Shown piece after piece: positions 2,634-56,645 of a stretch of DNA of 64,000 nt. The stretch covers positions 1-64,000 of the forward strand of contig CAILUD010000039.1 in assembly GCA_903837285.1 (NCBI GenBank), in the 5' to 3' direction. Every line of letters begins with the position of its first letter. Positions within the stretch are counted from its first letter, which is position 1. The notes beneath the pieces are model-generated. The model did not search any database. It was not told the origin of the DNA and was given only the letters and a program-made list of their open reading frames with translations. Source of the stretch: an uncultured Bacteroidota bacterium (GTDB taxonomy: Bacteria > Bacteroidota > Bacteroidia > Bacteroidales > GWA2-32-17). A program made the position numbers and the translations under genes.

Positions 2634-5600
2634 CTATCGCATTAGTGTTATATTTCCTTTTGTCTCTACCTTAGTTCCAATGAAGTACTCTGCTTTTAGA
2701 AAGTATACAAATACATCAGTGTCTGCTGCTTTGCCTTTATATACTCCATCCCAGCCAAAATCCGGATCGGAAGTTTCAAAAACTTTTTCGCCCCATCTGT
2801 TATATATTTTAAATTCCATAGATTTTACACATTTTCCATAAACATACATTATGTCGTTTTGGCCATCACCATTAGGGCTAAAGCCAGATGGAACAAATAC
2901 CTCACCGCATTCTGTATCCACTGTTATGTTAATACAAGCGGTATCGCTGCAATCGTAACTGTTTCTTCCAATAACACAATACTCAATAGTTGAGTAAGGT
3001 TTAGCTACCGGGTTAGGGCAATCGATACAAGACAGGTCATTAATTGGACTCCAATCATAGAATTGAGCACCAGTAGCATTTAGCTGAACATATTGTCCTA
3101 TAATTAATATAGTGTCATGTGTTAATGTTAAAACAGGTTTTGGGTTTACAGTAAGTATAAAGGTTGTTGTATCGTAACATATTGTAGAATTCGCAATTAA
3201 AGTGTAGGTATATGTTGAAGCAGAATTTGGTGTAACGTTAATATCCTGAGTGGTAAAATTTCCAGGTTGCCATAAAAAGCTAGTTCCGCCTGATCCATGT
3301 AAATCAATTGAATTTCCATAACAAATTGGAGAAAGTCCTGTTATCTTAGCTATTGGTAATGTGTCAACATTTATTTGGAAGTTAACAGTATAGTGGCAGG
3401 TATTTGTGTCTGTGCCTATTACCGTATAGCTGGTAGTATCCTGTGGTGAAATAATAACGGAATCTCCATTAAGATTACCTGGTTGCCACAAATAAGTTAT
3501 TGTATTATCAAATGTGCTATCCACTTGAAATAAAGTACTATTTCCTTTGCAAATATGATTGTTTCCTAAAACATTAAATTTAGGAAGTGAGTATACAGTA
3601 ATGAAAGTGGAGGTTGTGTCTTTACAAAGTTCGGTAGAAGTGCCTATTAGGGTATAAGTAGTATTAATACTTGGGGATATTGTTATTTGAGATGTTGATG
3701 CAACAAAATTTGTGTCAATTGACCATTCATATGTGTTTCCACCAAAACCAAAGATTGTAATACTGTCAAGTAAACAAAGTGCAGTGTCAATTGGTGCTAT
3801 TGATACATTAATAGAAGGATATACAACAACAAATGTATTTGCGGTATCTTTGCAATTATTAGTAGTTGTTCCATAAAGCGTATAAGAATATGTTGTATCT
3901 GCAGTATTAGGATGGAATACTATAAACGAATCTGTATTATTGCTTGGATCCCATAAATATGAAACTGGCATTGAACTCGAGGCAGTAAGTGTTATTGTTT
4001 CATATGGACACATCAGATACAGTGATGCAACGCTAAGAACTGGTTTTTCGTAAATTAAAACTGAAACAGAATCAAGATTTTTACATCCATGAATACTGTC
4101 TATAGCATGAGCAATATAATTATATGTGTAGCCTACAGAGTCTGGAAATAAAGTAGCGCTTGAATTCATAATGCTGTCAGGAATAGTCCAGAATAAGTTG
4201 GATGGCATATTTGAAGTAATATTAATATTAATTGGTTGGCCATAACATATTGCAGTATCGCTAGGTGTTATATTTACGGTTGGAATAGGCCAAGCAATAA
4301 AGGTTGTATAAGCAGTATCTCTGCAACCAAATGGAGTTTGAACATAAACAGTGTCAAAATAAATTGAATCAGGTGTGTTAAGTACAAAAGTTAATATTGA
4401 ATCTGGTGTATTTATTGGGTGCCAATCATATGTTAAAGGCAGATGGTAAATGTCATGCACTTGAATGTTAATTGTAGTGTCTGGACAAAAAGAACCTGCA
4501 CCAGTAATATAAATATCGGGTTTCCAGTTCACGAAAATTGTTGTATTTGCAGTATCTCTACAACCATTTATTGTGTCTGTTACTATAACAGAGTAACTAA
4601 AAGTATTGCCGGCAGTATCTGGATTAACGGTAAATGTAGAATCAATTCCAGTTCCTGGACTCCATTGATAAGTTGAAGGTAAGTTGCTTGTTACATGAAG
4701 AGTATAAGGTGTTCTATAACATGTTGAATCTGGAGCTGAAATTATAAGTTGAGGAAGTGCATTAACATATATTGAAGTTGTTGCAGTGTCTTTGCAACCG
4801 TTTAATGTGTCAGTTACTATAACGGAATAATAGAAAGTATGGCTAACAGTGTCTGGATTTACGGTAAAATTAGAGTCTAATCCGTTACCAGGATTCCATA
4901 AGTATGCTGATGGTATATTACTAATTACATTAAGAGTATAAGGTGTGCCAAAACATGTTGAATCAGGAGCGGAAATTTGAAGTACAGGTTTTGAGTTTAC
5001 TATAACTGTTGCATTTGCAATATTTGAACAATTCATATCATCGGTTCCTGTAACAATATAGTTAAATGTTAATGGGGGAGTAAATGAAAGTGTGTCGTTT
5101 AAAATATTTAGTGGTGACCATAAGTATGATTCTGCTCCGTTTCCTACAAGTATCATCGTATCTCCATAACATATTGAAGGAGTTACATTGTTAATAGTTA
5201 CATTAGGTTTAATACAAACATCAAATTTTAATATGTATGCATCTCTGCCACCACCTGATGATCCTTGAAAATATGTTGTGCCTCCTGGGTTTAAATTAAA
5301 TATATTTGCAGAGTTAGTAAAGCCTGTAACCCATAGGTTTGTTGTATCTGAAAAAATGCCAATGGCATCTTCTGCTGCCGAACCACCAAAATATGTAGCC
5401 CATTGTCTTATACCATTTAACTTGAATTTTAATATAAAACCATCTTGAGTTCCACCTATAGTTCCTGAGTAATAAGTTCCCATTCCAGGATTTAATTTCG
5501 GGAAATTTGCAGACTGCGTACTTCCAACAGCCCATAAACTTAGACCGTCAGTGTTAATTGTTTTAATGTTTTCTGCGCTGTTGCTACCATAATAGGTTGC

Positions 5601-44674: not shown

Positions 44675-44929
44675 GTGAAAACCATCTCATTTAATGAATT
44701 AAGACGCATAAAAGACCGCTTGCCAAACGGAAGTATGCAAATAATAGCCACTGCTCTTGATATTAGCTTAGAGACTGTTCGTAACTATTTTGGTGGAACC
44801 GATTATGAAAAAGGAGAGATAGTCGGTATTCATACTGAAAAAGGTCCAGATGGAGGAATAGTTCTTTTGGATGATACTACTATTTTAGAACTAGCAATGA
44901 AAATTCTTAAAGAAAATAATTTAAATTAA
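44675..44929 (+). CDS. Small helix-turn-helix-like protein
   Basis: 84 residues from a GTG at 44675 (MKTISFNELRRIKDRLP). The middle (MQIIATALDISLETVRNYFGG) looks like a helix-turn-helix, and the second half is a compact GG-rich segment (GPDGGIVLLDDTTILELAMKIL). I know this as a conserved short protein of this phylum without a known job. It lies 4 bp before the GTG start of cysE on the same strand, so cotranscription is probable and a link to sulfur or cysteine metabolism is possible but unproven. No ATG alternative is available. Confidence 0.72.
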   Translation: MKTISFNELRRIKDRLPNGSMQIIATALDISLETVRNYFGGTDYEKGEIVGIHTEKGPDGGIVLLDDTTILELAMKILKENNLN

Positions 44930-47148: not shown

Positions 47149-47739
47149 ATGGACGAGAATAGTAAAGAAAAAACGCGGGAAAATATAATTAAGTCTGCCA
47201 TTATTGTTTTTGGAAAATTTGGTTATAAAAAAGCTACAATGGACGATATAGCTGTTGCAGTTGGAAAAGGCAAAACCGGATTATACTATTATTTTAAAAA
47301 TAAAGAAGATGTTTTTAAAGCTGTTATTGAAAAAGAAGCAAATGAATTAGCTTATGCAATTAATGAAGCAGTAAGTTCTTGTTCTAACCCTATTGAAAAG
47401 TTAAAAGCTTATTTTTTTACTAGAATGAATACTTTGCTAAAAGTTTCTATTTTTTACGAAGCAATGAAATCTGAAGTTCTGGATAATTTGCAGTTTATGA
47501 ATCAAACCAGATTAGCTTATGATAGAGCAGAATTAGAGCTGGTAAAGCAAATTCTTAATGATGGCATAAAGCAAAAATATTTTGAATTAAAAGATGTTGA
47601 AACTTCTGCCATAACAATAGTAACAGCCTTAAAAGGATTAGAAATTCCATTTTTTGTTCAGAATGGAAATCATGACTTTGAAAAAAATATTGAAAATCTC
47701 TTTAATTTAATATGTTTTGGATTAATTAAAAGAAATTGA
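47149..47739 (+). CDS. TetR/AcrR family transcriptional regulator
   Basis: 196 residues. The N-terminal helix-turn-helix (IIKSAIIVFGKFGYKKATMDDIAVAVGKGKTGLYYYFKNKEDVFKAVIEKEA, cited here by TMDDIAVAVGKGKTGLYYYF) is canonical for the family; the C-terminal ligand-binding half is unassigned. TetR-type proteins usually repress an adjacent gene until a small ligand is bound. Its tail end (last 23 codons) and terminator occur again at 56016-56146. A dyad at 47928-47951 downstream could be its operator, controlling the surface-protein block. It begins 24 bp after the hydrolase gene. Confidence 0.93.
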   Translation: MDENSKEKTRENIIKSAIIVFGKFGYKKATMDDIAVAVGKGKTGLYYYFKNKEDVFKAVIEKEANELAYAINEAVSSCSNPIEKLKAYFFTRMNTLLKVSIFYEAMKSEVLDNLQFMNQTRLAYDRAELELVKQILNDGIKQKYFELKDVETSAITIVTALKGLEIPFFVQNGNHDFEKNIENLFNLICFGLIKRN

Positions 47740-47803
47740 TTTAGTGTAATTTGTTTTGATTAGTTTTGGTTAGGTTGGTTGTAAAATAACCAACCTTTTT
47801 TTT
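47668..47803 (+). repeat. Direct repeat copy A: tetR 3' end plus terminator
   Basis: This 136-bp stretch (last 23 codons of tetR, stop at 47737-47739, then the untranslated tail and terminator) recurs at 56016-56146 with roughly nine-tenths identity by eye. It is the resident end of an intact gene. The two copies bound the three-gene surface-protein block. Confidence 0.88.
47772..47803 (+). terminator. Intrinsic terminator after tetR
   Basis: Arms AGGTTGGTT (47772-47780) and AACCAACCT (47788-47796) with the loop GTAAAAT, followed by a run of T to 47803: a standard factor-independent terminator. Confidence 0.85.
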
Positions 47804-47927
47804 ATTAATATTTTATTTATTAGATGGTTACTATTTACATTAAATAGCAACTACAGAAAAATTTTACCAGTTACAAACTCAAAGCAACCAATTAAAATTT
47901 AAAACAACCAGATATACAATAACATTG

Positions 47928-47951
47928 ATTATATGATTTAAGTCATATAAT
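47928..47951. promoter_or_regulatory. Candidate operator: 24-bp dyad upstream of the surface-protein block
   Basis: Perfect 9-base arms ATTATATGA and TCATATAAT are separated by TTTAAG, in the 208-bp gap between the tetR terminator and the first exported gene. The dyad is 60 bp before the ATG at 48012. Such a symmetric site is compatible with a TetR-type or other dimeric regulator. Activity is not shown. Confidence 0.4.
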
Positions 47952-48011
47952 ATTAGTTCTTTAATCACAATGTTTAAGCAACAGAAATTTAACAACCTAA
48001 AATAACCACCT

Positions 48012-48428
48012 ATGAGAACTTTTTTATTAACTGCAATTGGCTGCTTTGCTTTTATAATAAGCTCTGCCCAATTAAAAATTATGGATCTAAATGTTTTACC
48101 TATTTCACAAGGCGAAACTTTAAGTAATGATTCTATTCAACTACTTATTCAATTTAAAATTTCAAATCCGGCACTTTCTCAAAATATTCATTTTCAATTT
48201 GGAACACAACCAAATATAGGTGATGTTTTAAATGAGGTAGCGCCTGTAACCCTGCAAGGTTCAGAATATATTGTTACATATAATGGCAGACAAGAAATAA
48301 TTCGTAATCATGATGTACGCATATACTGTAAAATGAGCATGACAAATTATAATGCATGGCAAAATCTCACAGTTTTTGCAGTTTCTACAACAGGAAATAA
48401 TTCTGAAAATCTATATCAAACAAGATAA
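48012..48428 (+). CDS. Small exported protein, first gene of the adhesin block
   Basis: 138 residues with a signal peptide (MRTFLLTAIGCFAFIISSAQ). The mature protein is probably a single beta-sandwich (LKIMDLNVLPISQGETL, IQLLIQFKISNPALSQNIHFQFG, GDVLNEVAPVTLQGSEYIVTYNGR) of unknown family. It has no sorting domain of its own. It lies 10 bp before the 1897-residue adhesin, on the same strand, so it may be a chaperone or accessory surface protein, but this is inference from position. The gene begins after a long untranslated gap containing a dyad. Confidence 0.72.
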   Translation: MRTFLLTAIGCFAFIISSAQLKIMDLNVLPISQGETLSNDSIQLLIQFKISNPALSQNIHFQFGTQPNIGDVLNEVAPVTLQGSEYIVTYNGRQEIIRNHDVRIYCKMSMTNYNAWQNLTVFAVSTTGNNSENLYQTR

Positions 48429-48438
48429 TTAAAGAGCT

Positions 48439-51400
48439 ATGAAAAAGATATTTATACTTTTATTTGGCATTTTATTACTTAACATAAGCATTAATGCCCA
48501 AAATATTTTTACAGTTACAAAAACAACTGATCCTGATCCGTTTACATACAGTTATAATTATATTGATAGTTTATGTGATACAACTATGTATGGAACATTG
48601 CAATGGGCAATTCGTAAAGCAAATGAAATAGTAGGCCAATGTGAAATTCAATTTAATATTTCTGGAGTAGGACAGCAAACAATCTATTTAGAGGGATTTA
48701 TTCCCGGAATTAATAATAAAACATTCATTAATGGAACAACACAAGCAGGTTATCAAGCTGGGAACCCACAGATTATTCTTGATGGACAAAATATTGTTTT
48801 TCAAGGTCTCTTTTTTGCACATGCAAACGGTTCAAAAGTTGAAGGAATTTATATTAAAAACTGTACAACTCAAGGAATTGCAATTTCTAGTTCAGATAGT
48901 GTAACAATTCAGGATTGTATAATCAATCAAATTTCAAATGGTACTAATAATTCTGAATATACTATTGGTATTGCTATAGCTAATTCATCTTATTGTATAA
49001 TTAAAGGAAATAAAATTGGTACTGATATTTTAAACGCAGTTTTGCCTGTCGAGGATGATGGAATAATGTTGTGGATTAATTCAAATAACAATATAATTGG
49101 TGGGATTTTATCTGGTGAATCAAATATAATAAAACATTGTGGAAATAGAGGTGTTGATATTGGAGCATTATCTTTATACAACCGTATTTCTGGAAATATT
49201 ATAACAAATTGCCCGATTGCCATATTTTTAGGTATTGGTTCAAATAATGAAAAGTTAGCACCTGTTATTACTCTTGCTACAAATAATACTATTTCTGGAA
49301 CTTCTGAGCCAAATGATATTATTGAAATATTTGGTAGTACAGGAAACGGAAATACTAATGAATATTTAGGAACAACGCAAGCAGATTTAATCGGAAATTG
49401 GTCAACAATTTTAAATACTAGTTTTGATTATATTGTTGCAACAGCAACTGATTTAAATAATAACACATCAGTTTTATCGAGTGCATTTCAAAAACTAATA
49501 TTACCTGGAACATCATGTGAAACTGCAATTGAATTAACAACAGGAATTACTTATTTAAGCGTTAATAGTACTAGTTCAAACTGGTATCATTTTATCCCTG
49601 ATACCAATTCTTATTATTTTATAATACCAAGAGATAGTTCATGTATAACAAATATTTCATTGTATGAAGGAATATGTGGACAAAATAATCTACTTATCTC
49701 AAGCGATTCGTTAGCTATTCTAAAAGAAACATTTATTGCAGGTAATGATTATTATATACAAATAATAGGAAACGATTTATGTTCTACTTATTTAAAAGTT
49801 GACACATTTTTCTTTAAATATATTGATCAAAATTGCCCCCCAATTGAATGTTGTGGTAAACTAAGCAACGAAGGTTTTGATATAGTAGCTCCCCTGACAT
49901 CTGGCACTCCACAATGGATAAGTCCATATTTCTGGAATCTTGTTTGTGCTTGGCAATGTGGATGGGGAACTCCTCAGGCTCTTGGAATTACTGATAAATA
50001 TGCATATTTATGGTCTTATACACAACCTTCGTTTGCAGGTACTTTTAATCTTGTAGGCGAAGGTATTAGGCAGCCAATAGATTTACAGCCAAATAGAATA
50101 TACCAGATGGATATTAGATATAGAACTTCTAATAATAACAATAATAATATTAGTGGGTTGGTAAATGCTTTTGTTTCAAATGTAAATTACAATGTATGTT
50201 TAAATGGAAATACTGGAAGTGGAACTCTTTATGGGACAGAAATCGCAGATATACATGATCATGGGTTTGGTTTGTCATTTCCTTCCTCCCTTACTATTCA
50301 AAGCACAACAGTTAACTTTCCAACACCAAATACCGTACTTCCAAATTCATTTTTATATGTTTGGCCTACTTCAACACATCTTAATTCAGCTGGAGATACA
50401 GTTTTAACTTTATTTTTAGAATTGTATGACATTAAAATTCATTATCCTGCACCTCAATTTTCATATACAAGTAATTGTAACCATACCGTTACCTTAAATA
50501 ATACTACTCCACATAGTAATGAAAACATACATAATATTCATTGGAACATATATGATATGACTGGAGGTTTAATTGATCAGGCAAATAATATTGAATCTTA
50601 TACACATACATTTTCTAGTAGTTATAATCAAATTCAAGTTGTAATAGTGTATGATTATATTATGGATAATGGCAGTATAGAATGTACTTGTGATACGACC
50701 ATGAATATTGTTTTTCCTCAGTTAAATGTAAATATTACTGGTCATCAAAATAATATTTGTTCAAATGACAACCATTCCTATGTAACTGCTAACGCAAGTA
50801 ACGGTACTGCACCATATTCCTACCTTTGGAATACAACCGCAACAACTGCAACAATTATTAATCTTCCATCAGGAACATATTCTGTAACAGTAACTGATGC
50901 AACTGGATGTACTGGTACTGATAATTTTATAATTACCGGAGCACCAAATCCAGTTATAAGTTTAATTTCACCACAAACTCCCTGTTTTCAACAGTGTAAT
51001 GGAACTATTGTTTCAACAGTAACAAATGGTACACCTTCCTATACATATAATTGGAGTAATGGAAGTCATACAGCAAATTTAATCCAACTTTGCTCTGATT
51101 CTTATACTGTAACTGTAATAGATGGAGTTGGATGTACTTCAACAAATACAATTAGTCTATCAACAAATCCTCAAATAAATATTACAACTTCGTCATTTCA
51201 GAATGAATGTTCGGGACAAAGTAACGGAAGTATTTATGTTGCGGTTACAGGAGGTACTCCTAATTATATTTATAATTGGTCAAATGGTCAAAATACAAAT
51301 TCAATTATTAATTTAGTAGCTGGAAATTATACTGTAACTGTTACAGATGCTAATGGCTGTACTGCTTATACTACATTTATTGTAAACAGTTTATCAGTAC

Positions 51401-54132
51401 CGATAATTACTCCTACTGTTACACCTTCTGATCCTTGTGTATCTTTATGTAACGGGAGTATTATTCTGAATGTAACTCCCCTAGACTCGTATTCATATTT
51501 ATGGTATTATAATGGAAATATAGATGCAACAACACAAAATATACCTACAGCATGCTTAGGAGGTTATACTGTGGTTGTTACAAGTAATGCAACTGGTTGC
51601 TCTGTGACACAACCTATTGCTGTAAATTCATTGTCAATTTGCCATGCAGGTACAGATACTTATATTAGTTCAGATCTTCTTATACCAGGTAATTCTGGAA
51701 TTATTTATGTTCCAGGAAATATATTTATTACAAATAATGCCACTCTGACAATTTCGGGTCCTAATACCGAACTAAGATTTATGTCAAACAAGAGAATTGA
51801 GCTAGATAAAGGATGTTCTTTAAAATTATTCAGACATTCAAAGTTGTCATCATGTTGCAATATGTGGGATGGAGTAAAGGCAATAAATAATGCTGCAGCA
51901 TATCCCAATACTGTATTTATTTCGCAAAGTACTATTGAAAATGCCGTCATTGGGATTAATGCTTACGATTATTCGAAGGTATTAAGTTATAGATCATATT
52001 TTATAAATAACTATGTTGATTTCTATTTAAATAAAACAAAGATATCTCATGTAATAGATTCATGTACATTTGAAACTAACATACCGCAACTTCCTTATGT
52101 ATTTTACCCATCATATGTTCAAAATCCATATGCTCACATTTATACTATTAAAAATGCAAATAAATTGAATATCAAAAGGAGTTATTTTAGAAACACAACC
52201 CCATTTTTAACTACAGATATAGCATGGAAAAAGGGAATGGGAATATATTCTGATTTGACACAGGTAAATGTATCTCATTCAGAATTTACCAAATTATGGT
52301 ATGGGGTTAAATCTAATTATATAACAAAAGTTGATACAAATATTTTTAATGGTAATAATCGTGGAGTATTAATTGAAGGACTTAATTCTGCAACACGAAT
52401 TATTTTTAACCAATTTACTATTACAAATAATGGAAATCAATATACTTCTGCTACGTACCCATGGGGAGCAGGTGTTTCAAATAGCATTGGTTATGAAATA
52501 GAAAACAATGAGTTTAAAAATGGGTTTATTGGTCTTGCTATGATAGGTAATGCAGCCACAGGTCGTAAAGTGTATAAAAACTCTTTTGATAGCCTCGAAC
52601 ATGCTTTTGTTGCCAACGGAACAAATAGCGTTAAACTAACCTGTAACGATTTTGGCTTAACCGTTCCTAATATTACAAGTAATATTCTTTTGTGGTATGG
52701 GTCTATTAATCCAAAACAGGATCATGCACCTTATTGGGATGCTTATGGAATATCTATCAACTCTCACAACCGTTTTTCTACAAGTAAAGATTTATTGCCA
52801 GATTCACGAAAGTTTAACAGATATGGGTCAACCCAGACTTATGATTATTATTGGGGTGTATATCCAACGCCATATAACGATTTAACAAGAATTTCTCCAC
52901 CTTCATGGACTCCTGTTACCTATGTTACCTTACATCCTGCTTTAAATCCATCGGAATATTACAATTCCTTAAATTGCTTAACTGAAATCAACGGAAATAA
53001 ATCAGTTGGTAAAGAATTAACAAAGGTTGATTTATTAAAAGACGCTCTTACGTACCGCAATAATTATTATAATGCTTTGGTTGATAATGGTAATACCGAT
53101 TATTTATTATCGTTAATACAGAATATGAAACCAAACAATTTTAATTTTGCATACAATCAACTGATGAATGCGTCACCTTATCTTTCAGACGCTGTATTAA
53201 TACAATTTATGATTAATCCAATAAATAAACCTCCCTTTAAAAAGGATGTTGTGCTAGCAAACTCACCGCTTCCATTAAATGTACGACCATACATCAATCA
53301 AATGAATGTAAATCAGAACTTCAAAAACCAGATGTGGGCGGCACAGGTTGGAACAAGCCCACGTGTAGCAATTGAAATGGAACTCGAAAACAGGGATTTT
53401 GGAATAAATGGCATATTCGGCGACCTTGTTCAATCGGTTTTAATGGATACTATTCCCCAAAAAACGGACAGTCTGTTGAGTTATGTGTTACAAAAAGGTT
53501 CGCTTAACGAAAGATTGATTACTGACCCTGTTTTTATTGAAAAAGAACGGTACGTCGATGCCCAGACAAATCTAACCGAAATTTCTTATTTAAACCAAAC
53601 AGGTAACCAACAAATAGTCGATTTTATTCAACTGCAACAATTGCAAATACTATTAAACCAAACGCCAGATAGTTTACAAAAGAATGTAATTTTGCAAAAC
53701 GAAGATTGGATTAATTCAATAGCTAATGATTCTACTCATTTCTGTATGGCAGATGCTTTAAACTTACTTGAAAAAGCAAACGATACATTATATCCGAGAA
53801 ATGTTTATATAGGTACGGGAGCACAATTAAAAGTGACGGAATTTTTAAATAATGGAGTTAGTGAAAATGATGAAAAAGAAGAATGTAGTCTTACTGTTAC
53901 TCCTAATCCGGCAAAGTCAACCGTAAGCTTTATTGTAAATCCTGATGAAATTACAGAAAATATGAGAATTTCAATTTATGATGTACAGGGAAGATATATA
54001 CAGGAAGTTGAAATAAAAACATCAAAAGAAATTTATTTGATGGATATAAATAATTATAAAAAGGGAATTTATTATGCTTCACTTCGTATAAACGATAATA
54101 TATTATGTGTGCGTAAATTAATTGTTGAATAG
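48439..54132 (+). CDS. Very large adhesin-like protein with parallel beta-helix regions, SprB repeats and T9SS type A sorting domain
   Basis: 1897 residues with a signal peptide ending near INAQ. Residues about 25-280 begin like CSLREA-type beta-helix proteins (YGTLQWAIRKANEIVGQCEI, FINGTTQAG) and include repeated right-handed helix turns. Then an Ig-like module (NNTISGTSEPNDIIEIFGS), an N-acetyl-type sandwich region, and at about 760-1070 four SprB-like repeats (Y.Y.W.N....I..L..G.Y.VTVTDA.GC). A second beta-helix covers about 1080-1400, and a helical part carries short repeats (PYLSDAVLIQFMINPINKPPFKKDVVLANSPLPL, shortened as SPLPL/PYLSD words). The final domain (NPAKSTVSFIVN...IYDVQGRYIQEVEI...YKKGIYYASL) is a type A sorting signal. 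SprB repeats are named after the F. johnsoniae gliding adhesin. Confidence 0.87.
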   Translation: MKKIFILLFGILLLNISINAQNIFTVTKTTDPDPFTYSYNYIDSLCDTTMYGTLQWAIRKANEIVGQCEIQFNISGVGQQTIYLEGFIPGINNKTFINGTTQAGYQAGNPQIILDGQNIVFQGLFFAHANGSKVEGIYIKNCTTQGIAISSSDSVTIQDCIINQISNGTNNSEYTIGIAIANSSYCIIKGNKIGTDILNAVLPVEDDGIMLWINSNNNIIGGILSGESNIIKHCGNRGVDIGALSLYNRISGNIITNCPIAIFLGIGSNNEKLAPVITLATNNTISGTSEPNDIIEIFGSTGNGNTNEYLGTTQADLIGNWSTILNTSFDYIVATATDLNNNTSVLSSAFQKLILPGTSCETAIELTTGITYLSVNSTSSNWYHFIPDTNSYYFIIPRDSSCITNISLYEGICGQNNLLISSDSLAILKETFIAGNDYYIQIIGNDLCSTYLKVDTFFFKYIDQNCPPIECCGKLSNEGFDIVAPLTSGTPQWISPYFWNLVCAWQCGWGTPQALGITDKYAYLWSYTQPSFAGTFNLVGEGIRQPIDLQPNRIYQMDIRYRTSNNNNNNISGLVNAFVSNVNYNVCLNGNTGSGTLYGTEIADIHDHGFGLSFPSSLTIQSTTVNFPTPNTVLPNSFLYVWPTSTHLNSAGDTVLTLFLELYDIKIHYPAPQFSYTSNCNHTVTLNNTTPHSNENIHNIHWNIYDMTGGLIDQANNIESYTHTFSSSYNQIQVVIVYDYIMDNGSIECTCDTTMNIVFPQLNVNITGHQNNICSNDNHSYVTANASNGTAPYSYLWNTTATTATIINLPSGTYSVTVTDATGCTGTDNFIITGAPNPVISLISPQTPCFQQCNGTIVSTVTNGTPSYTYNWSNGSHTANLIQLCSDSYTVTVIDGVGCTSTNTISLSTNPQINITTSSFQNECSGQSNGSIYVAVTGGTPNYIYNWSNGQNTNSIINLVAGNYTVTVTDANGCTAYTTFIVNSLSVPIITPTVTPSDPCVSLCNGSIILNVTPLDSYSYLWYYNGNIDATTQNIPTACLGGYTVVVTSNATGCSVTQPIAVNSLSICHAGTDTYISSDLLIPGNSGIIYVPGNIFITNNATLTISGPNTELRFMSNKRIELDKGCSLKLFRHSKLSSCCNMWDGVKAINNAAAYPNTVFISQSTIENAVIGINAYDYSKVLSYRSYFINNYVDFYLNKTKISHVIDSCTFETNIPQLPYVFYPSYVQNPYAHIYTIKNANKLNIKRSYFRNTTPFLTTDIAWKKGMGIYSDLTQVNVSHSEFTKLWYGVKSNYITKVDTNIFNGNNRGVLIEGLNSATRIIFNQFTITNNGNQYTSATYPWGAGVSNSIGYEIENNEFKNGFIGLAMIGNAATGRKVYKNSFDSLEHAFVANGTNSVKLTCNDFGLTVPNITSNILLWYGSINPKQDHAPYWDAYGISINSHNRFSTSKDLLPDSRKFNRYGSTQTYDYYWGVYPTPYNDLTRISPPSWTPVTYVTLHPALNPSEYYNSLNCLTEINGNKSVGKELTKVDLLKDALTYRNNYYNALVDNGNTDYLLSLIQNMKPNNFNFAYNQLMNASPYLSDAVLIQFMINPINKPPFKKDVVLANSPLPLNVRPYINQMNVNQNFKNQMWAAQVGTSPRVAIEMELENRDFGINGIFGDLVQSVLMDTIPQKTDSLLSYVLQKGSLNERLITDPVFIEKERYVDAQTNLTEISYLNQTGNQQIVDFIQLQQLQILLNQTPDSLQKNVILQNEDWINSIANDSTHFCMADALNLLEKANDTLYPRNVYIGTGAQLKVTEFLNNGVSENDEKEECSLTVTPNPAKSTVSFIVNPDEITENMRISIYDVQGRYIQEVEIKTSKEIYLMDINNYKKGIYYASLRINDNILCVRKLIVE

Positions 54133-55944
54133 ATGAAGCATTCATTGTTGTTATTCATATTGTTACTGTTGGGAAAACTTGTATTTTCCCAACAGTATTT
54201 AAACAGTACTTACATTACACAAGGATTGGCATATCCTCCTACTAATATAATTCCAACAGATAGTGGTTATATTATTGGCTCTTCTACTGCAAATACAATA
54301 TATTTATTAGATTCTTCAGCAAATGAAAAATGGTTTAAACAATATCCACTTAGTTTGCCCGGAGGATATGGTAATTTAATATCTGATAATAATGGGAAGT
54401 ATATTGCTTCCGGCACTTTACAGGGTGGTATTGATGGAGCATATTTAATTAAATTCAATAATTCTTTCGATACTATTTATTCAAAAATATTAATTACAGA
54501 AACAATTTGTAGTAGTTGTTTATCTATGGTTCACTGTTTTGTAGACAACAATGGAAAATACATTCTTTTAGGGCATAATTCAAGAGACAGTAGCGGTGTG
54601 TCAATTCCTGATGTTGATGCGCTTTTTATAAAAACGGATACATCCGGTACAATAATAAATCATAAATTAATTGGGCCTTCTAATAATGCTGATTGGTTCA
54701 ACACTGGTCTTCAAATGGGTAATAACTACTATTTGTTTGGCGGAACATATAGTTATGCGCCAGGTAGTGTTGTAGGTATGGATAGAACGGATGGATGGAT
54801 AGTAAAAACAGATTTGCAGGGAAATGAAATTTCAAGTGCTGCGTTTGGGAATCCGAATATATATGATCATGATTTTATCTTTACCCTTAAAACACATCAG
54901 AACAAATTGCTTACAGGAGTAGATTATGGTATTGCAAAACATTCAAGCGGCTTTAGAATGTTTAAACCAAGATTATTAGTTTTAAATGATGATTTAAGTG
55001 TTTATAAAGATCTGTTTTTTAAGAATTCATATGTGTCAAATGATACTTTATTTAATAGTTCAATTGTAGATGGAATTCTGAACATTGATTCAACATATAC
55101 TTTTTTAGGAAGAGATGTTGCAGTAAGTATTTCAACTCATAGTGGATTACACTCAAATGGATTTGTTTTAAAATTAAATAAAAGTTTAAAAGTTTTATAT
55201 TTTCGTAATTATATTCATAATGGCGGTAATTATACGAGTATTATACCTACAGTAATTGCATCAACGGCTGATAGTGGATATATATTTGGTGGTTATGTTA
55301 ATGACAATACCTTAACCCCCTCTCAGCAATCGTGGCTTGTAAAAACCGATAGTCTCGGTTGCGATGGTTTTCATAGTTGTGATGATACAACTTTAGTTTG
55401 TCAAATATTACAAGCACCAGATACGGCATGTAAAAATGACACATCATGGATACATGTAAAATTTAAAGGAAGAAGCGCACCATATTTTATTTATGCAAAT
55501 ACAACACTTGCATTGGATAGTGTTTATTACCCATACACTTTACCTTTATGGATAGATACACTTATGCCATATTTCCCAACAACAACAGGCATGCAACAAG
55601 TAATTGTTAAACTACAAGACCCCTGGGGTTGGTATCAAACTGATACCGTACAGATATTTGTAAAAAACTGCGGATCTGGAAGTATAGAGGAAACATGGTA
55701 TCCTAAAAAAGTAGAAGTCTTTCCAAATCCTGCTACAAATGAATTACATGTAAAAATACGTTCTGCAATAACCACTCCTGTTTCTATAACAATTTACGAT
55801 ATGCAAGGTAAAGTTGTAAAACAAATTGCAACGAAACTTAACGAAACGGTAATAAATATTAGTGGGTTAAAAGAAGGGGTATATGGGATAAGGGTCGTTG
55901 GGGATAATATAACTGTGAGTGATAGATTTGTGAAATTAGAGTAA
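54133..55944 (+). CDS. Secreted propeller-like protein with T9SS type A sorting domain
   Basis: 603 residues with a signal peptide (ending KLVFSQ). The first 400 residues are probably a beta-propeller: repeated blade words such as SGYIIGSS.., GKYIASGTLQGGIDGAYLIKF, NNGKYILLG, NYYLFGGTY, DSGYIFGGYV with WIVKTD / SWLVKTD / AYLIKF. An Ig-like domain with paired Cys (CQILQAPDTACKNDTSWIHV) follows, then a type A sorting domain (VEVFPNPATNELHVKI, SITIYDMQGKVVKQI, KEGVYGIRVVGD). The ATG directly follows the TAG of the adhesin gene, so the two are coupled. Related in style to the SBBP protein at 2634-7412. Confidence 0.86.
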   Translation: MKHSLLLFILLLLGKLVFSQQYLNSTYITQGLAYPPTNIIPTDSGYIIGSSTANTIYLLDSSANEKWFKQYPLSLPGGYGNLISDNNGKYIASGTLQGGIDGAYLIKFNNSFDTIYSKILITETICSSCLSMVHCFVDNNGKYILLGHNSRDSSGVSIPDVDALFIKTDTSGTIINHKLIGPSNNADWFNTGLQMGNNYYLFGGTYSYAPGSVVGMDRTDGWIVKTDLQGNEISSAAFGNPNIYDHDFIFTLKTHQNKLLTGVDYGIAKHSSGFRMFKPRLLVLNDDLSVYKDLFFKNSYVSNDTLFNSSIVDGILNIDSTYTFLGRDVAVSISTHSGLHSNGFVLKLNKSLKVLYFRNYIHNGGNYTSIIPTVIASTADSGYIFGGYVNDNTLTPSQQSWLVKTDSLGCDGFHSCDDTTLVCQILQAPDTACKNDTSWIHVKFKGRSAPYFIYANTTLALDSVYYPYTLPLWIDTLMPYFPTTTGMQQVIVKLQDPWGWYQTDTVQIFVKNCGSGSIEETWYPKKVEVFPNPATNELHVKIRSAITTPVSITIYDMQGKVVKQIATKLNETVINISGLKEGVYGIRVVGDNITVSDRFVKLE

Positions 55945-55950
55945 TGAGCA

Positions 55951-55976
55951 GATGCTGAATCAAGTTCAGCATGACG
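55951..55976. repeat. Intergenic hairpin with TCAAG loop
   Basis: Arms ATGCTGAA (55952-55959) and TTCAGCAT (55965-55972) around TCAAG, followed by GACG. It lies just after the stop of the 603-residue gene and about 40 bp before the tetR-tail copy. It belongs to the same family as the hairpins at 21275-21310 and 21321-21346. Confidence 0.75.
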
Positions 55977-56015
55977 GTTTGGGTTATGAGAAGTGAATTA
56001 ATTGTTAATTAAAAT

Positions 56016-56146
56016 AATCATGACTTTGAAAAAAATATTGAAAACCTATTTAATTTAATATGTGTTGGATTAATTAAAAGAAATTGATTTAGTGTATTGT
56101 GTTTTGATTAGTTTTGGTTGGTTATAAAATAATCAACCTTTTTTTT
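56016..56146 (+). pseudogene. Direct repeat copy B: tail remnant of a second tetR allele with terminator
   Basis: The stretch encodes NHDFEKNIENLFNLICVGLIKRN followed by TGA (56085-56087), matching the tetR C-terminus at all but one of 23 residues (V for F). In DNA three of 69 coding bases differ and two of these are silent. The untranslated tail and terminator also recur, with a few substitutions and a short deletion. No start codon or upstream tetR sequence is present, so it is a 3' remnant. Upstream, the frame meets a stop codon two codons before the matching part. Confidence 0.85.
56116..56146 (+). terminator. Intrinsic terminator, copy of the tetR terminator
   Basis: Arms GGTTGGTTAT and ATAATCAACC (one G-T pair) around AAA, followed by T8. 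It is the counterpart of the terminator at 47772-47803, and separates the surface-protein block from the next gene. Confidence 0.78.
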
Positions 56147-56168
56147 ATCTTTATAAAAAATATTAATC

Positions 56169-56645
56169 ATGCATATTAGAGATAAAGCAATAAAAGAGAT
56201 AACATTACAAAATGAATTGTTGGAAGTGATTAATAAATGTAAAGTTTGTCATGTTGGGTTTGTAGATGGCGATAAACCTTATGTTTTGGCATTTAATTTT
56301 GGTTTCGATGGTAAATCGGTTTATTTGCATTGTGCTAAAGAAGGGTATAAAATAGATGTTTTAAATAAGAATAACCAGGTATGTATTGAATTTGATACAG
56401 ATCATGATTTATTTGCCAGACACGAAGAAGTTGCATGTAGCTGGAGAATGAGATATAGAAGCGTTATAGTGTGGGGAAAAGCGGAATTTGTTTCAGATTA
56501 TAACGAGAAAGTAGATGGACTTAAAATATTTATGAAGAATTATTCTGATTTAAATTTTGAATTTTCAATTCCTTCGGTTAATAATATTCTTATAATAAAG
56601 ATACCTATTGATAAAATGACTGGAAGAAAATTCGAATATTTATAA
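56169..56645 (+). CDS. Pyridoxamine 5'-phosphate oxidase-like flavin split-barrel protein
   Basis: 158 residues. The sequence HVGFVDGDKPYVLAFNFGFDGKSVYLHCAKEGYKIDVLNKNNQVCIEFD is the standard N-terminal barrel of the NimA/pyridoxamine-oxidase-like group (shown here through its words PYVLAFNFGF and YLHCAKEGYKIDVL). The group includes flavin- or heme-binding proteins, and some members reduce nitroimidazoles. SWRMRYRSVIVWGKAEFV is the second common block. Physiological substrate unknown. It probably followed tetR directly before the surface-protein block arrived, because a tetR tail plus terminator sits immediately before it. Confidence 0.85.
   Translation: MHIRDKAIKEITLQNELLEVINKCKVCHVGFVDGDKPYVLAFNFGFDGKSVYLHCAKEGYKIDVLNKNNQVCIEFDTDHDLFARHEEVACSWRMRYRSVIVWGKAEFVSDYNEKVDGLKIFMKNYSDLNFEFSIPSVNNILIIKIPIDKMTGRKFEYL

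Follow-up and report, generated by a model that had tools for sequence, protein, structure and literature searches.

Genomic islands that carry an integrase insert at gene 3' ends; the gene end is then found as a direct repeat on both sides of the cargo, and the gene itself is left intact. In E. coli, linear DNA can circularise and integrate by a single crossover, which results in the same repeat structure (PMC3240628). One-sided illegitimate joining is documented for naturally competent species, and at low frequency it also happens during E. coli conjugation (PMC2884548). It was also proposed that resident 3' regions are displaced by imported modules at T6SS and Rhs loci (PMC5361080).

In this paper we looked at an 8.2-kb block that follows a tetR-family gene in a 64-kb stretch of DNA (the window), part of a 114-kb contig (C39) in a draft, MAG-like assembly of 233 contigs (G000) from an uncultured Bacteroidales bacterium. 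The mechanism that fits our data best, with a probability of about 0.62, is the import of the block from a related genome by RecA-type recombination, anchored in a core gene whose resident 3' end was displaced. The locus shares features with each of the described systems. Like the integrase-borne islands it has an intact gene whose 3' end is directly repeated around the cargo, but no integrase, fixed target or shared core was found. As in homology-facilitated illegitimate recombination (HFIR) and the single crossover of circularised DNA (PMC3240628, PMC2884548), homology to a resident gene anchors one end and foreign genes are gained without a mobility gene; a single crossover yields exactly the architecture of copy A, cargo and copy B that is seen here. 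Unlike those systems, our cases are deduced from the genome structure of uncultured Bacteroidales, the cargo consists of surface operons of 3-10 kb and the divergence of the anchors is at the interspecies level. The displaced 3' ends and orphan immunity genes of the Vibrio T6SS and Rhs loci (PMC5361080) are similar in that a module lies beside a conserved anchor and the resident 3' end is pushed downstream. Here, however, the anchor is an unrelated core gene (a regulator, yaaA or a membrane protein) and not the module's own 5' region, and the remnant encodes nothing useful but a terminator. This kind of event is already known, and the novelty is modest: a scar that is repeated in one genus and its tie to T9SS surface operons.

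Table 1. Features of the tetR locus and of the inserted block (positions in the window).
Feature	Position	Strand	Remarks
tetR-family regulator	47149..47739	+	intact, anchor gene; TetR_N E 1.6e-12; orthologues in G001 (93% aa identity) and G004 (79%)
Copy A	47668..47805	+	tetR 3' end (final 23 codons, tail, intrinsic terminator); 91% direct repeat of 56016-56148
Cassette left end	47806..48011	+	presumed site of the cassette promoter; not similar to the native tetR-flavin spacer
S138, small exported protein, 138 aa	48012..48428	+	adhesin partner
1897-aa T9SS adhesin	48439..54132	+	SprB repeats E 1.6e-11; Por_Secre_tail E 8.8e-9
603-aa T9SS cargo protein (C603)	54133..55944	+	Por_Secre_tail E 1e-14
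Cassette right end	55945..56015	+	hairpin TGCTGAATCAAGTTCAGCA; joins the tetR remnant at about 56016
Copy B	56016..56148	+	displaced tetR 3' remnant; frame, stop and folding terminator; runs into the native flavin-gene leader
Flavin split-barrel (Pyridox_ox_2) gene	56169..56645	+	Pyridox_ox_2 E 1.2e-20; native downstream neighbour of tetR

The block holds three genes, for a small exported protein, an adhesin and a T9SS protein, as an earlier note on this DNA had described (Table 1). The adhesin has a conserved N-terminus of about 350 aa and a C-terminal sorting domain. This domain (PF18962 / TIGR04183), which is the criterion for T9SS surface proteins, is present in both the 1897-aa and the 603-aa protein, and both are predicted to belong to this class. 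S138 has no match in Pfam or NCBIfam, and the GC content of the block is not distinct from that of its surroundings. The same note had seen a hairpin of an interspersed family before copy B. The hairpin itself (TGCTGAATCAAGTTCAGCA, at 55953) is real and is predicted to fold. With about 2 per 100 kb, however, it is rare, it is missing from the other comparable insertions, and it was rejected as a mobility signal.

The recurrence of the tetR 3' end and its terminator beyond the block, also reported before, is confirmed by a direct repeat with 91.3% identity over 138 aligned positions (E 3.9e-50), which contains 7 substitutions and one 5-bp indel. Copy B includes all of the last 23 codons, the stop, the tail and the terminator. 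In the coding part (66-69 bases) the codon comparison gives the same three differences as before, two of them silent, and the third replaces Phe with Val. The predicted folding energies of the terminators are -13.5 kcal/mol for copy A and -10.5 kcal/mol for the other copy (z about -3) and, because both still fold, transcription of the operon is probably isolated from that of its neighbours at either end. This repeat is one of just two significant repeat pairs across the window, and the 4.29-Mb assembly contains nothing else that compares with the two copies: the sole other match is 51 bp long with 80% identity. A local repeat pair of 203 bp and 77% identity is found at 4547-4983 of the window.

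Comparison with related genomes indicates how the locus looked before the block arrived. In the congeners G001 and G004 tetR is directly followed by the flavin gene on the same strand, ~80-90 bp apart, and in G006, a member of the family, the two genes are separated by about 115 bp with no block between them. The order hydrolase, tetR, flavin gene is also seen in G006, and hydrolase-tetR in G005, G007 and G009; the empty arrangement is thus ancestral and the block was gained. By alignment with the G001 and G004 junctions, copy B is continuous with the native leader of the flavin gene, and the sequence 3' of copy A (from 47806) has no match at the empty sites of these two genomes. The empty sites in G001, G004 and G006 prove that the block was inserted at the 3' end of tetR. 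This was the proposal of the earlier note, and relatives with tetR directly before the flavin split-barrel gene were the check that it had named. In G002 (locus L034, G002:C106) the cysE-type, hydrolase and tetR genes are missing from the locus, and a homologue of an 84-aa gene (window 44675-44929) directly adjoins the flavin gene.

The tetR insertion is not the only one of its kind. In contig C190 of the congener G002 a related operon is flanked on both sides by the 3' end of yaaA (111 bp, 77%). The DUF4412-type gene lies beyond the yaaA remnant, and the sequence 3' of the remnant is the native spacer; in G000 and G001 yaaA is directly followed by the DUF4412-type gene, which is the empty site of the G002 insertion. 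In contig C105 of G004 the cargo comprises a lipoprotein gene and a T9SS gene, and what is repeated on either side is the 3' end of a gene for a 243-aa membrane protein (198 bp, 82%). At the tetR, yaaA and membrane-protein gene 3' ends alike, the cargo is flanked on one side by homology to the recipient, and the empty site is known for two of the three insertions (tetR and yaaA). A protein-level scan of 1.68 Mb found just these three clean displaced C-terminal ends. Other C-terminal matches were set aside: two in G004:C11, where the pairs are similar at the N-terminus too, as expected of decayed full-length paralogues, and one in G004:C32, with 28% identity and a distance of 19 kb. No clean displaced N-terminal gene end was confirmed in the same scan, and the numbers are too small for a claim of bias; an N-terminal match in G004:C69, considered as a mirror (5') case, was rejected as an intergenic hairpin repeat, and a further N-terminal match occurs in G002:C201.

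One question that is raised by these structures is whether the second gene end was simply made in place. One possible option is that an unknown transposition-like event duplicated about 130 bp of the target, after which both copies drifted. The tight fit of the repeat ends around the operon agrees with this, and so does the sister grouping of A and B relative to G001, with 7 differences between them and 10 from each to G001. This grouping counts against import and leaves an ordinary duplication in the lineage compatible with the window; the earlier note had named the clustering of copy B with copy A, ahead of the relatives, as an outcome that would speak against its own reading, and this clustering is what is found. 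Yet no transposase is present and the cassette ends are not shared, and duplication with drift predicts similar non-synonymous and synonymous change in the remnant. This is not what is seen in the parallel cases, in which the yaaA-end copies of G002 have a dS of 1.68 and a dN of 0.21 (Fisher p = 3e-4) and the membrane-gene-end copies of G004 a dS of 1.29 and a dN of 0.10 (Fisher p = 4e-10). The G004 remnant, with differences at 24/163 positions from G001 and at 24/154 from G000, is no closer to the intact gene in G004 itself (29/163) than to these other species. Because the divergence of the copies is mainly synonymous, plain target duplication with drift is rejected for G002 and G004; before they came to share a genome, the two copies diverged as functional genes in different lineages. 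In the window two of the three coding differences are silent, which for tetR alone is not significant (Fisher p = 0.07). Copy B did not change faster than copy A, and in a rough Poisson estimate the joint probability is at most 0.02 if B drifted neutrally and 0.49 if it was constrained. The earlier suggestion that copy B came from a functional diverged allele is overstated: the silent bias on which it was based does not reach significance, and simple drift of a duplicate is disfavoured in the window just at p about 0.02. The window fits the same account with a closer donor, although weakly (p about 0.02-0.07), and alone it would not prove import. On balance we consider target duplication unlikely, with perhaps one chance in five.

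Another hypothesis is a site-specific genomic island, for which an integrase acting in trans would target gene 3' ends and the element would bring the replacement 3' end. All three insertions lie between copies of a gene 3' end and leave that gene intact, and the longest exact shared words (32, 26 and 17 bp) could be cores. However, the block encodes just S138, the SprB/T9SS adhesin and the T9SS protein, with no integrase; related operons lie at different targets (tetR and yaaA), their orientations relative to the target gene are opposite, and no motif common to the three ends can be found by eye. This mechanism, one of the two that the earlier note had offered, is improbable. The assembly itself may also be suspected, since the assemblies used here are drafts and a MAG-like metagenome assembly could fuse two strains or loci. 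Such an artefact is very improbable: the contig is long and has no N in the region of tetR and the block, operon-remnant joins of the same kind exist in two other assemblies, and the copies are diverged, not identical. A more probable mechanism is the second proposal of the note, homologous recombination with a related strain, which is likely and is preferred over a site-specific element because the two analogous insertions show strongly synonymous-biased copies of the 3' end. Homologous integration is also indicated by the intact gene, the old 3' end beyond the cargo, the varied anchors and orientations and the lack of a recombinase.

According to the import mechanism, a DNA fragment that came from the genome of a related Bacteroidales bacterium and comprised a tetR 3' end with a surface-adhesin operon behind it would enter the lineage, and RecA-type homologous recombination inside tetR may join it to the chromosome. 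The other end would be closed either by a single (Campbell-type) crossover, if the fragment was circularised, or by illegitimate end joining, as in HFIR; the two are not separable by sequence. The outcome would be a hybrid but intact tetR that ends in copy A, the operon behind it, and then the displaced resident 3' end (copy B) on the native downstream gene. For the window we infer the foreign origin of the block, the dependence on RecA and which copy is the resident one. Among the genomes compared no donor with tetR followed by the operon was found, and no foreign tract could be delimited inside tetR, where lineage-specific changes per segment show no consistent break. A rise of dS after tetR codon 75 relative to G001 was considered as such a tract and rejected, as it is lost on outgroup polarisation.

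The operon belongs to a family with a patchy, locus-hopping distribution. Relatives of the S138-adhesin operon are found in G002, G003, G004 and G007, at other loci and in several copies, and the operon is absent from G001, the closest species. The 603-aa protein has relatives with 64% identity in G002, 55% in G004 and 50% in G007, and of 393 genomes from the order 8 contain S138 relatives. As in the window (48012-49490), a small exported protein of about 140 aa (S138) lies before the conserved adhesin N-terminus in 19/20 homologous loci across the order (L102-L107, L109-L111 and L333-L342), the exception being L108, where the homologue is at a contig edge. This suggests that S138 is an obligate partner of giant T9SS adhesins.

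If these imports are real, they show how giant adhesin genes can pass from one species to another with no mobility gene involved, and the displaced in-frame 3' end of a core gene is a readable scar that can be searched for elsewhere in order to count imports and identify donors. Recombination between A and B could possibly delete the operon cleanly and restore tetR. A more far-reaching idea, which we regard as doubtful, is that the surface-adhesin operons of this Bacteroidales family are integrase-less cassettes that repeatedly land at the 3' ends of unrelated core genes and provide reversible surface variation; if so, the short flanking repeats would allow gain and loss by ordinary recombination.

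Some other repeats were seen in these genomes. Two repeats, one of 186 bp around a relative of C603 in G004:C105 and one of 105 bp in G000:C229, resemble dispersed hairpin elements and were rejected as copies of gene ends. In G004:C105 palindromic 186-bp repeats that are 97% identical (L131, 7208-7393 and 12101-12286) flank three genes and seem to be copies of a dispersed hairpin element. In the same contig a gene that adjoins paired hairpins (L153, 13132-13671; G004:C105:248132-248671) probably encodes a REP-associated (IS200-like) transposase, judging by its sequence. The operon in G004:C27 has no detectable flanking repeat, which counts against the import reading, as does the low number of clean cases; its empty site was not located, as the flanking genes have no clear orthologues. 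Within this contig the end of a C603-type gene with about 60 bp downstream is repeated (L115, 17070-17158 and 18297-18383; 83%), with the copies 1.2 kb apart around a 168-aa gene, and this may be a fourth, smaller displaced 3' end.
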